From: Kiritimatiellia bacterium
GTDB taxonomy: Bacteria > Verrucomicrobiota > Kiritimatiellia > JAAZAB01
Assembly: GCA_028715905.1 (NCBI GenBank)
Contig: JAQUQV010000010.1
Location: 1-52,378 of the forward strand
Length of the DNA: 52,378 nt
Direction of reading: 5' to 3'
In this document: positions 1 through 4,468 of the stretch, one piece after another
How positions within the stretch are numbered: position 1 is the first letter of the stretch
How the letters are laid out: the number at the start of each line of letters is the position of its first letter
Position numbers and translations under genes: made by a program
Notes under the pieces: generated by a model
Seen by the model: only the letters and a program-made list of their open reading frames with translations
What the model was told of the DNA's origin: nothing
The model's database searches: none

Positions 1-1071
1 TGTCCGGGAAACGCCGATGAACGTCCTTCAATGCGGCCAGCGCTTTATCATCTTGGCCCTTATTTTGATAGATCATAAAGCCCGCCATAATTGCCCGTGG
101 CCAGGTCGGAGTATTCCGGTACTCCTGTCTGAATTTATTAAAATAATTGAGCGCTTCGCCGTAATTCTGTTCCGTCATTACCATACAGTTTCCCAGCATA
201 AAGTCAAGATATACCCCTCCGCCGCCCCAGCAGGATCATAAAGAATTTCCAGACAGTAATCGGCTTTCGCCTCTATCATTTCGCCCCGATACAAGCCAAA
301 TTCGTTATCCGTAATGAATCTATCCGTTTCCCGGCCGGCCTTCTCTGCCGCCGCCTTGTCCAGCGGCACTTTCCGCTGTTCATTGAGACAATATAGGGCA
401 TACCCGTAAAACCGGACAGCTTGTTCATACCGTTGCATGGTCATAAGCAGATCGCCGCCGCATTCACAGACCAATACCCGTGCTAATTCTTCAAGCTTCG
501 GCCCCAGGTAATTGATCTGGTCCAAGGCCGTCTCGTATTCCTTCAATGCCAAATGCGCTCTTGTCGCCTCCACGGCACAGTCCGCCGTAACACGGTCAAT
601 TATCCATTCCTCCGCAGGCGGGAAGGAGGCAAATAAACGTTGCGGCTCTGAACGTTCAGGCTGTTTGGATTTGACTGGTTTCCCTTTTTGTGCTTTTTCC
701 TTTTGTTCCGCTTCGGCTTGAGCCGTTTTCCACTGCCGCGCTTTGTCCTCCCCGACCAATACCGGCGCAACCAGCGTGAGGGTCGCCAGCGGATTTTGTT
801 CCATTATGTTCTGGTAACGCGCCAGGATCGCAAGCCAGCGCGTGCGTGCCGCGGATATTGCTTCGGCCAGAAAATATTCGCAGGCTTTGAAATCATTTTT
901 GCTGAATGTTCCGTCCGCCATTTTGCGGATGTGGCGGAACATCAATTCTTCGCGGAGACAGGCTTCTTCCGCTTCGTTGGATGGATTGCCGGCAATGGCT
1001 GGCAGGCAGGAGGTAAGGCACAAGCAGAAAGCAATGGTGACGTTAATACTTAATTTAGAGGCACGATACAT
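1..1071 (-). CDS. Exported TPR-like protein, partial and frameshifted
   Basis: Function unknown. The readable frame starts at 1071 with a signal sequence whose LTSC (residues 19-22) fits a lipobox, so it may be a lipoprotein. The middle is helix-rich with a lysine/glutamate/proline-rich linker near residues 120-145. The frame stops at 178, but another frame continues from about 214 to the window edge with convincing protein (for example YLDFMLGNCMVM, then NYGEALNYFNKF and DDKALAALKDVHRRFPD), which reads like tetratricopeptide helices. Adding one base in the C4 run at 214-217 (or at 225-228) joins the two frames. This is either a real frameshift mutation or a sequence error. The gene lies downstream of two other exported unknowns on the same strand. 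The 3' end is outside the window. Confidence 0.6.
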
Positions 1072-1180
1072 TTAAGGTATAAGTATGTCTTGGGATGCGT
1101 TTGATATTTTATTCGTTACTGGCATGAGAAGATACTGTATGACTTTATCAGAGTTGTTTGTATCTGCTACGGCATTTTAA

Positions 1181-1837
1181 CTACTTGGATAATTTTTTCA
1201 GCATTCTGCTCTTTGTTTCCTCGTTCATCTTGTAGGTGTCCATTATTTTTTGAAGCTCATCAATCGCCTCAGGTGGTTGTGAGTATACTTCCACCAGGAA
1301 ACATTCCAGTTTGTAAGATATGTCCTCTTCCAGCTTGCGAAGACGATACTGAAAATTATGCTCGTCTATTTTTTTCTTGTTTTCTGCAAGGGCTTTTTCA
1401 TATTCTTTACGGAGTTCAGGTTCTTTTATCGATTCGGGGGCTACCCCTGATGGATATGAACCCGGAGCAGAAATGTTTCTCTGGGGAGAAGAGGTAAAAT
1501 CAAAGTTCTTATCGATTTCTTTCTCTACTGCCTCATGTAATTTAAACCAAAGCTCCGCCTGAATCCTGCGTGCGTTTGGCCATTCCGTGAGCCATTCATC
1601 GACGTTTAGTTTATCAAGTTTCCGCAGGCTGGTCAGGCTGCCGATTATTTGTTCAATGATTTGAACGTCTTTCTCTTTATGAAATCTAACCAAATTGCTA
1701 TCAATTTCTTTTGCCTTAATTTCCACGGTTTTCATTGTGAGTCTCTCTGTGTTTTTTTGATTTTCTGCATCTTCTGCTAAGCTTATGGAAACCAAAGAAA
1801 TAAAAACTGAAAGGCAAACAGTTATAATGATTTTCAT
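1181..1837 (-). CDS. Exported hypothetical protein, charged and helical
   Basis: I do not recognise this 218-residue protein. The start at 1837 is preferred over the upstream in-frame codon at 1882 because it gives a clean signal peptide (MKIIITVCLSVFISLVSISL, then cleavage near AED) and has a strong AGAGGAGGGG ribosome binding site just upstream. The mature part is rich in Lys and Glu and probably helical or coiled-coil, with a proline/glycine/serine linker around residues 125-140. It is the middle gene of three exported proteins on this strand and begins 23 bases after the end of the Ig-like gene, so co-transcription is likely. No catalytic motif is visible. Confidence 0.6.
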   Translation of the reverse strand: MKIIITVCLSVFISLVSISLAEDAENQKNTERLTMKTVEIKAKEIDSNLVRFHKEKDVQIIEQIIGSLTSLRKLDKLNVDEWLTEWPNARRIQAELWFKLHEAVEKEIDKNFDFTSSPQRNISAPGSYPSGVAPESIKEPELRKEYEKALAENKKKIDEHNFQYRLRKLEEDISYKLECFLVEVYSQPPEAIDELQKIMDTYKMNEETKSRMLKKLSK

Positions 1838-1859
1838 TTTCCCCTCCTCTCGCGTTTTT

Positions 1860-2957
1860 TTAATATCCAGACGTTGGATCATCAGCGTTTTTACTTACCG
1901 AAAATCCGCCTTTACTTATTGTAATTTTACCGGTGTCGTCTGCTTCTTGGTAATGTGTTACGGTCTTGAAAACTTTCGCATTTCCACTTCCGACCCGGAA
2001 CTCCCATGGTATTGGCCATGTGAATGTGCCGTATGAAAAGGGTGGCTCTCGACTATCGCTTTGCACAGTATCCACGAAGTCATCCTTGTTGGGCTTTGTT
2101 TCTGTACCGGCAATAACTTTTCCCCAGTCACCAATAGGATGAATAGCACCATTCAAATCGCTGTAGAACCCATTTCCTATCCCCACGCATGACTGTTCTC
2201 TCATCTCAATATTGATGAAGGAAACATCATTTGGCGTTATATATGCTCGGCCTTTGAATCCAGCAGATGCTGTTCCGTTTATGTGCCAGTTTGTTGTTCC
2301 GGGTTCTCGTTCCATCTCTATTCCACTTGGCTCAACTACTGAGAAATTAGCGGTGTATGTTTTGCCCTTATATGCAGCCGTGACGGACGCACCGGAAGCT
2401 CTTTCATGCGCAGTGAATTTGGTTGAACTGCCAGACGATGGATATATTGATCCATCCCCTGTTAATGACCATGTAACTTGGCTTCCTGTTGCGCCTTCAA
2501 GTGTTAGAGTAACTTTTTCTCCAACACCGAGTTTTTTTCTTGTGCGGTCGACAGGGATTGTAGCGTCGGTTATCGTCTCCAGCTTAACAACCTCCGCCTC
2601 CGTATCCATTTTCCAGGTTAATGCCCGGCCCGCGTTTGTCCCCGGATAGGTATATTCGCCGCTGAAACGACCAATGTGCTGGGCCGCAAAATCCGGCGGT
2701 ACAGTCCCGTTCCAGCTTGCCGGCCCGCCCACCCAGATAAATCCGCCGGGTTGATCGCAAGCGCCTTTTGTCACAATCGCATTGTCCCCCTTCGCGTTTT
2801 TAGGCGGTGTAACCGTGAAATCAACATGATCGCCGGGTTGCAATATCCCAAAATTCGCGCTCTGGGTATAATCCCAGGCAAAGACACGCTCGGGCAGACC
2901 ATGCCAACCCAGCATAAATGCCAGTAAAACAACATATAGTTTTGCTTGATGCATCAT
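1860..2957 (-). CDS. Exported protein with bacterial Ig-like domain
   Basis: A 365-residue protein with an N-terminal signal peptide (cleavage probably after VFA, residue 27). Residues about 135-212 look like a bacterial Ig-like (BIG) fold: a GVGEKVTLTL strand, a VTWSL core strand and a final YTANFSVVEP strand. The C-terminal third (GRAYITPNDVSF onward, residues about 240-365) is a separate region I do not recognise. The first ATG (2957) follows AGGAGA by six bases; the second ATG is the next codon. It is the first of three exported unknowns transcribed together. A surface or periplasmic structural role is plausible but is an inference. Confidence 0.6.
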   Translation of the reverse strand: MMHQAKLYVVLLAFMLGWHGLPERVFAWDYTQSANFGILQPGDHVDFTVTPPKNAKGDNAIVTKGACDQPGGFIWVGGPASWNGTVPPDFAAQHIGRFSGEYTYPGTNAGRALTWKMDTEAEVVKLETITDATIPVDRTRKKLGVGEKVTLTLEGATGSQVTWSLTGDGSIYPSSGSSTKFTAHERASGASVTAAYKGKTYTANFSVVEPSGIEMEREPGTTNWHINGTASAGFKGRAYITPNDVSFINIEMREQSCVGIGNGFYSDLNGAIHPIGDWGKVIAGTETKPNKDDFVDTVQSDSREPPFSYGTFTWPIPWEFRVGSGNAKVFKTVTHYQEADDTGKITISKGGFSVSKNADDPTSGY

Positions 2958-3058: not shown

Positions 3059-4312
3059 CTATTTGTCGCTCAGGACCGCGATGCCCGGCAATTCCTTTCC
3101 TTCCAGGAATTCCAGGCTGGCGCCGCCGCCGGTGCTGATATGGCTCATTTTATCCGCCAGGCCGCTTTTGTTGACCGCGCTGACGCTGTCGCCTCCGCCG
3201 ATGATGCTGACGCAGCCGCGGTTGGCGGCGATGGCGCGGGCGACGGCGAAAGTGCCGTCTTCAAACGGGGCCATTTCAAAACAGCCCATGGGCCCGTTCC
3301 AGACGATGGTCTTCGCGTTTTTGATCGCGGCCGCGAAAAGCTGGGCGGTTTTGGGGCCGATATCCAGCGCCATCCAGCCTTCCTCAATGCCGTTTTCATC
3401 CGCGACCCTGGTGTTGGCGTCGGCGCTGAAGGCGTCGGCGATAATATTGTCAACCGGCAGGAGCAGTTGCACGCCCTTTTGGGCGGCTTGGGCAAGGACG
3501 TCCCGGGCCAGGTCAACCTTGTCGCTTTCCACGAGGGATTTGCCGACCGGCAGGTTTTTCGCGCGGTAAAAAGTATAGGCCATGCCGCCGCCGATCAGCA
3601 GGGCGTCAACCTTGTCCAGGAGATTGGTAAGGACATTGATTTTGTCGCTGATTTTGGCGCCGCCGATGATGGCCGCGTAAGGCTTGGCCGGGTTGGAGGT
3701 GGCTTTGCTCAAGTATTCAATTTCCCTCTCCATCAGGAAACCGGCGGCGCGTTCCCGGAAAGATTCCGCCACCCCCACGATGGAGGCATGCGCCCGGTGC
3801 GCCGTGCCGAAGGCGTCGTTGACGTATACGTTTCCGAACTGCGCCAGTTGGCCGGCAAAGACCTTCTGCTTCTTTTTCATTTCAGCCTTGGCCGCTTTTT
3901 TCTCCTCGTCCGAAGCGGTTTTTGGCAGGTCGGGTTTTCCCTCTTCTTCCGGATGAAACCTGAGGTTTTCCAGTAAAAGCACTTCGCCCGGTTTCAGAGA
4001 CCGGGCCATTGCCTCGGCCTCCGGACCGATGCAGTCCGGCGCGAACCCGACGGGTTTGCCGAGGATTTCGGCCAGCCGTTCGGCGGCGGGTTTCAGGCTG
4101 AATTTCACATCCGGCTTGCCGGTCGGCCGGCCGAGATGACTCATGAGCACCAGAGAGGAACCCTGGTCAAGGACGTATTGAATGGTCGGAAGCGCGGCGC
4201 GGATGCGGGTGTCATCGGATACCCTGCCGTTTTCCAGCGGCACGTTAAAATCCACGCGCATGAGAACGCGCTTGTTTTTCAGGTCAACGTCGCGGACGGT
4301 TTTTTTGTTCAT
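3059..4312 (-). CDS. pgk: Phosphoglycerate kinase
   Basis: Converts 1,3-bisphosphoglycerate and ADP to 3-phosphoglycerate and ATP in glycolysis. The 417-residue reading has the family landmarks: RVDFNVPL near the N terminus, SHLGRP, the [14 protein letters not shown] stretch, GGAKISDK, and the nucleotide-binding GGGDSVSAV near the C terminus. The start at 4312 is chosen because homology begins there; the open frame extends to 4432 but that part lies in a palindromic repeat. A Lys/Glu-rich insertion of about 20 residues follows the [10 protein letters not shown] stretch. The ribosome binding site is weak. It lies downstream of gap on the same strand, 156 bases away, as in many glycolytic operons. 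Confidence 0.96.
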
Positions 4313-4348
4313 GTGTATGAATTCCAAAAATATGCTCAAACGTTCCGT

Positions 4349-4423
4349 TGTAGGAGCCGAACCCGCGTTCGGCGATGTATGCTTTGCCGTCCGGAATCGC
4401 CGCATAGGGATGCGGCTCCTACA
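4349..4423. repeat. Palindromic intergenic repeat, copy A
   Basis: The ends are exact inverted repeats (TGTAGGAGCCG at 4349-4359, its complement at 4413-4423), with an inner GGCGAT/ATCGCC pair at 4371-4376 and 4396-4401. It lies in the gap-pgk spacer and would fold in the transcript. The left arm (4350-4377) matches 46936-46963 at 26 of 28 positions, so it is a dispersed element. Confidence 0.75.
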
Positions 4424-4468
4424 TGGATCCAATATAATTGCCGCCTTTGGCGACCTGATTAAATGTGT

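Follow-up and report, generated by a model that had tools for sequence, protein, structure and literature searches.

An exported gene pair in a Kiritimatiellia bacterium read as a candidate toxin-domain and immunity family

At one end of a contig from a Kiritimatiellia bacterium, three consecutive minus-strand frames each begin with a signal sequence; the question is what they encode and whether they belong together. The window, meaning the whole stretch of DNA analysed, is 52,378 nucleotides long and constitutes contig C10 of a 2.67-Mb genome in 141 contigs (G000); its base 1 is the contig end. The original prediction described three exported proteins, A, B and C, which could not be assigned to families and might form an envelope-associated complex. 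The first two genes are intact and have signal sequences as described; C reads as an open frame that starts with a signal sequence, yet the gene is not intact. A and B are indeed unassignable, as neither belongs to a Pfam or NCBIfam family above the cut-off. They are a real conserved pair in the same order, and the pair is probably a toxin and immunity cassette, which is likelier than an envelope complex. Coordinates are given in Table 1.

Table 1. Features at the left end of the window
Feature	Position	Strand	Description	Basis
Gene A	1860..2957	-	Exported, 365 aa; signal peptide, N-domain, Ig-like domain and CD	ORF, single copy
A, N-domain	2598..2876	-	Residues ~28-120 (~95 aa)	Three genomes of the family, different C-terminus in each
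A, Ig-like domain	2322..2597	-	Residues ~121-212, 'R.R..LGVGE....W' type	Alignment; weak SlpA_N/aBig_2 matches below cut-off
A, C-terminal domain (CD)	1863..2321	-	Residues ~213-365 (~150 aa), candidate toxin domain	Alignment
Gene B	1181..1837	-	Exported all-helical partner, 218 aa, candidate immunity protein	Start codon, alignment, model
Shine-Dalgarno-like site of gene B	1841..1849	-	GAGGAGGGG	Upstream of ATG 1837
Gene C', 5' part	178..1071	-	Putative 5' remnant of an exported TPR gene of ~800 aa; internal deletion at ~361-375	Alignment to relatives
Gene C', later TPR segment	2..217	-	Different frame after second deletion/frameshift at ~193-217	Continues on contig C8
pgk	3059..4432	-	Upstream edge of the insertion	

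The stretch carrying A, B and the remnant C' lies between pgk and, on contig C8, tpiA and secG. The right end of C8 is identical to window bases 1-127, an exact 127-bp overlap of the kind expected for adjoining contigs of an assembly graph, and C8 carries on gene C' before tpiA and secG; the two contigs are therefore neighbours. In seven genomes of the same family, G003 and G005 among them, tpiA comes after pgk across a gap of no more than ~0.7 kb. The A-B-C' stretch is thus an insertion into the conserved order gap-pgk-tpiA-secG. Genes related to this island are found elsewhere in the G003 and G005 genomes, not at pgk-tpiA.

Gene C has relatives only in G003 and G005 among the 10 genomes of the family; both are intact exported TPR proteins (794 and 804 aa), with which C is 60-66% identical. 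By alignment, C' keeps the first ~250 residues, loses ~175, keeps ~60 and loses another ~175. The second loss changes the reading frame; the TPR part therefore resumes in another frame at the very edge of the window, and its final 98 codons are on C8. Gene C is most simply read as a frameshifted remnant, dead in this assembly; misassembly is possible, and decay is the simpler reading because the loss is in two parts. The relatives have plain signal peptides with no conserved lipobox cysteine, and the suggestion that C might be a lipoprotein is not supported. Three family genomes carry either the TPR gene or an A-type N-domain gene, and in each of them the two lie near each other. A proposed homology of this TPR gene with the TPR neighbours at f31 loci (below) was not supported. 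A second and more decayed TPR scrap is present at the start of contig C21 (G000:C21:1-330, L133); a palindrome inserted in it, ACCCGAATATTGC...GCAATATTCGGGT, may be a small repeat element.

Gene A starts with a clear signal sequence and has a modular structure. Its N-domain is found only in G000, G003 and G005 among 334 genomes of the class, with one copy in each, always near the TPR gene. In the window it is joined to the Ig-like domain and CD; in G003 it begins a long protein whose C-terminal domain is alpha/beta hydrolase-like (Abhydrolase_6, E=2e-4, below cut-off), and in G005 it is joined to a domain containing HEQQH. A different exported gene is located downstream of the N-domain protein in each of these genomes. 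The middle of A resembles bacterial Ig-like domains (SlpA_N, PF22796; aBig_2, PF20578), but its scores are weak and below the curated cut-offs; this part serves the cassette as a linker and is no argument for adhesion. CD has a conserved core, P-x-x-V-[SN]-F...E; E254 and D296 (A numbering) are invariant across a 41-row alignment.

The open frame of B spans 1181-1882. The likeliest start is the ATG at 1837, behind the Shine-Dalgarno sequence GAGGAGG, and gives a protein beginning with a signal sequence. This start leaves 22 bases between the stop codon of A and B, essentially the 23 noted originally. B proteins as a whole are very diverse; those of the window type share the motif G(V/M)xPxxIxDPxxRxxYxxA.

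Known families for A and B were rejected after Pfam, NCBIfam and PDB sequence searches returned no confident match. For CD in particular, the sequence searches found no PDB or Pfam relative and no NCBIfam profile match above the curated cut-off, and no enzyme signature can be assigned. Structure prediction, with alignments that took in the window and one Omnitrophota locus, failed for CD (AlphaFold pLDDT 40) and gave a helical model for B (pLDDT 74), for which no PDB fold match was found at E<=0.001. A phage origin of A was likewise rejected, as 50,697 phage records gave no match and nothing came up in two scans of viral contigs. The original prediction had proposed looking for further copies in the genome; none of A or B was found in G000, and both are single-copy.

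A profile of the Ig-like domain and CD matches 28 of 346 genomes of the class. In all, 58 CD genes were collected from Kiritimatiellia, other Verrucomicrobiota, an Opitutaceae plasmid and an Omnitrophota MAG; almost all of these loci come from metagenome assemblies. CD ends a few residues from the protein C-terminus in the collected loci, while the N-terminal parts are otherwise different and exported. A partner, defined as a frame of at least 120 aa on the same strand whose start lies no more than 60 bp downstream, follows 51 of the 58 CD genes and has a hydrophobic N-terminus in 49; the median spacing is a 4-bp overlap and the median partner length is 259 aa. Other neighbouring pairs in the same loci satisfy this definition in 73 cases out of 307. 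The nominal binomial probability of the enrichment is 3e-22; since the loci are related and not independent, this value is indicative only.

The exceptions to simple pairing include a natural fusion of CD to a B-like tail (L019), a transposase gene inside a CD gene, leaving a 70-aa CD tip and an intact B downstream (L018, 5903-7264), and a locus in which CD and B are 86 bp apart (L116). The pair also occurs in other settings. In the Omnitrophota MAG, CD and B are side by side and respectively 60% and 40% identical to those of the window. On the plasmid of Opitutaceae TAV5 (L093, CP007054.1 25756-27704), a CD-B pair with a 4-bp overlap adjoins a DUF6531 (Rhs-type) protein; in the PLSDB gene table this pair is covered only by short minus-strand genes. 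A solitary B gene without A is found in G477, and six loci (L053, L055, L063, L073, L074 and L077) contain tandem arrays of partner genes, some of them with relatives among the partners of other CD genes. In most pairs B is less conserved than CD.

The C-terminal modules are exchangeable on more than one carrier. In family f31 a common N-terminal anchor of ~600 residues without Pfam domains is present in 20 genomes at 1-30 copies each. Proteins with this anchor, for example at L070, L084, L089 and other f31 loci, end in CD, in an HExxH metallopeptidase-like domain, in an alpha/beta hydrolase-like domain or in Rhs repeats; the enzyme assignments of the alternative cassettes are mostly below Pfam cut-offs, and the metallopeptidase-like ends have HExxH and Reprolysin-type matches at or below cut-off. 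Partner families track the type of C-terminus even on different N-termini: among 60 gene/partner pairs, all 131 similarity links between partners (E<1e-4) fall within a C-terminal type and 0 between types. The partner of the hydrolase-like protein of G003, which is carried on the window-type N-domain, is homologous to partners at two f31 loci. A single contig (L089) carries the anchor with CD and B, the same anchor with a metallopeptidase-like end and another partner, and an orphan 74-aa CD fragment with B'.

Some related loci are observations in their own right. Two exported cassette types without annotation are an HExxH metallopeptidase-like domain with a partner of ~280 aa (L181, L182, L185, L187) and an alpha/beta hydrolase-like domain with a partner of ~330 aa (L015, L192, L194). 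G000 also encodes a 2506-aa Rhs/teneurin-like protein with TTR-like, NHL and YD-shell domains (L201 2293-9813, G000:C3); after it come a small gene of membrane type and an Rhs scrap. This is another polymorphic-toxin-like locus in the genome.

Polymorphic toxins and the modules of CDI and Rhs systems exchange a 3' cassette together with its immunity gene, leaving strings of immunity genes and orphan modules (PMC3482391, PMC3150448, PMC5361080). The architecture of A-B is the same: a constant N-terminal carrier (the f31 anchor, or the window N-domain with its three C-termini) bears a variable C-terminal domain with a small cognate gene directly 3' of it; cassettes are exchanged, orphan modules and tandem immunity-like genes are left, and Rhs repeats occur on the same carrier (PMC3482391, PMC3150448). 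A-B is therefore read as a candidate family of toxin domain and immunity protein, not described before, that would act in the envelope. Because the C-terminal half of A and B are swapped for unrelated cassettes, the locus is better regarded as a polymorphic toxin/immunity locus than as a structural complex. There are also differences from known modules: the candidate CD and B match no family in the Pfam and NCBIfam copies searched, the carriers are of Sec-exported type, and the A-B partners are themselves exported, which by prediction implies an envelope target. The CD and B loci encode signal sequences or N-terminal membrane segments; a dedicated apparatus for secretion was not identified next to them, nor was any component of CdiB, T6SS or WXG type noticed. 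In T6SS effector-immunity arrays, successive displacement of effectors leaves older immunity genes in a row (PMC5361080). The rows of partner genes in L055, L063 and L074 are similar, but no T6SS genes were noticed beside CD-B loci and the sequences are unrelated.

It is thus probable that A-B belongs, as a cassette, to a Sec-exported polymorphic toxin system of Kiritimatiellota and relatives, with CD as effector and B as exported immunity protein. A would be the toxin protein, consisting of a signal peptide, an exchangeable N-terminal carrier, an Ig-like spacer and the CD effector. B would be a helical immunity protein, periplasmic or lipid-anchored, which binds its cognate CD and protects the producer; it would be exported because CD acts in the envelope. 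The pairing, gene order, export signals, exchange of cassettes, orphans and arrays, presence in other phyla and insertion at pgk-tpiA are observed; we infer the toxicity of CD, its neutralisation by B, its place of action and its route of delivery. Export of the partners points to the periplasm or membrane as the likely site of action, and this fits the peptidase and lipase-like companion cassettes. The 3' end of A and gene B would be gained and replaced together by recombination, leaving behind orphan cassettes and extra immunity genes. The nearby TPR gene may be an accessory factor, decayed here.

Unlikely, though the strongest of the alternatives, is a role of CD in sorting, anchoring or assembling surface proteins, as a C-terminal domain whose position recalls that of type IX secretion, with B serving as the export chaperone or envelope receptor dedicated to it. 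CD stands last, after an Ig-like domain, in exported proteins that are large and of many different kinds, and almost every copy has an exported helical protein as its partner; its greater conservation would also be compatible with a structural domain whose partner evolves fast. However, a sorting domain should coexist with effectors, whereas CD replaces enzyme domains and brings its own partner. The extreme diversification of B and its occurrence in tandem arrays and alone also argue against sorting, as do the single copy in many genomes and the lack of CD in most class members.

Such organisms are known as polymer degraders, and the alternative cassettes include predicted peptidase and hydrolase domains; A-B might on these grounds be a secreted hydrolase and inhibitor, or a nutrient-acquisition system of enzyme plus regulator, with no antagonistic role. 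This is improbable, as orphan cassettes, partner arrays, partner-only loci and Rhs-linked contexts are unexpected for digestive enzymes.

Slightly less probable still is that an adhesin or envelope complex is built from A, B and the TPR protein: the TPR gene, the N-domain gene and a further small exported gene do occur together in three family genomes, but the TPR gene is broken in the window and has no relative found at other CD-B loci, and the N-domain protein has a different C-terminus and partner in both relatives. What survives of the three-protein complex is the A-B pair, which recurs together and travels without the TPR gene beyond those three genomes. Intact copies of all three genes are not conserved together; the TPR gene is found only in the three genomes with N-domain proteins, and does not accompany A-B outside one family.

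The families of A and B are undescribed in the libraries searched, and no literature on polymorphic toxins in Kiritimatiellota or the PVC superphylum was found. The larger claim, that CD-B founds a toxin/immunity class not described before, acting in the envelope by a new mechanism, with undescribed Sec-exported carriers (up to 30 copies in some Kiritimatiellia genomes) and exchange across phyla as a unit, is tentative and somewhat less likely true than false. The CD-B, metallopeptidase and hydrolase cassettes, and the carriers which swap them, are testable toxin/immunity candidates. Reading A-B as one such cassette would explain a set of exported proteins that are otherwise unannotated, and the finding suggests that antagonism or kin discrimination is a trait of Kiritimatiellota.
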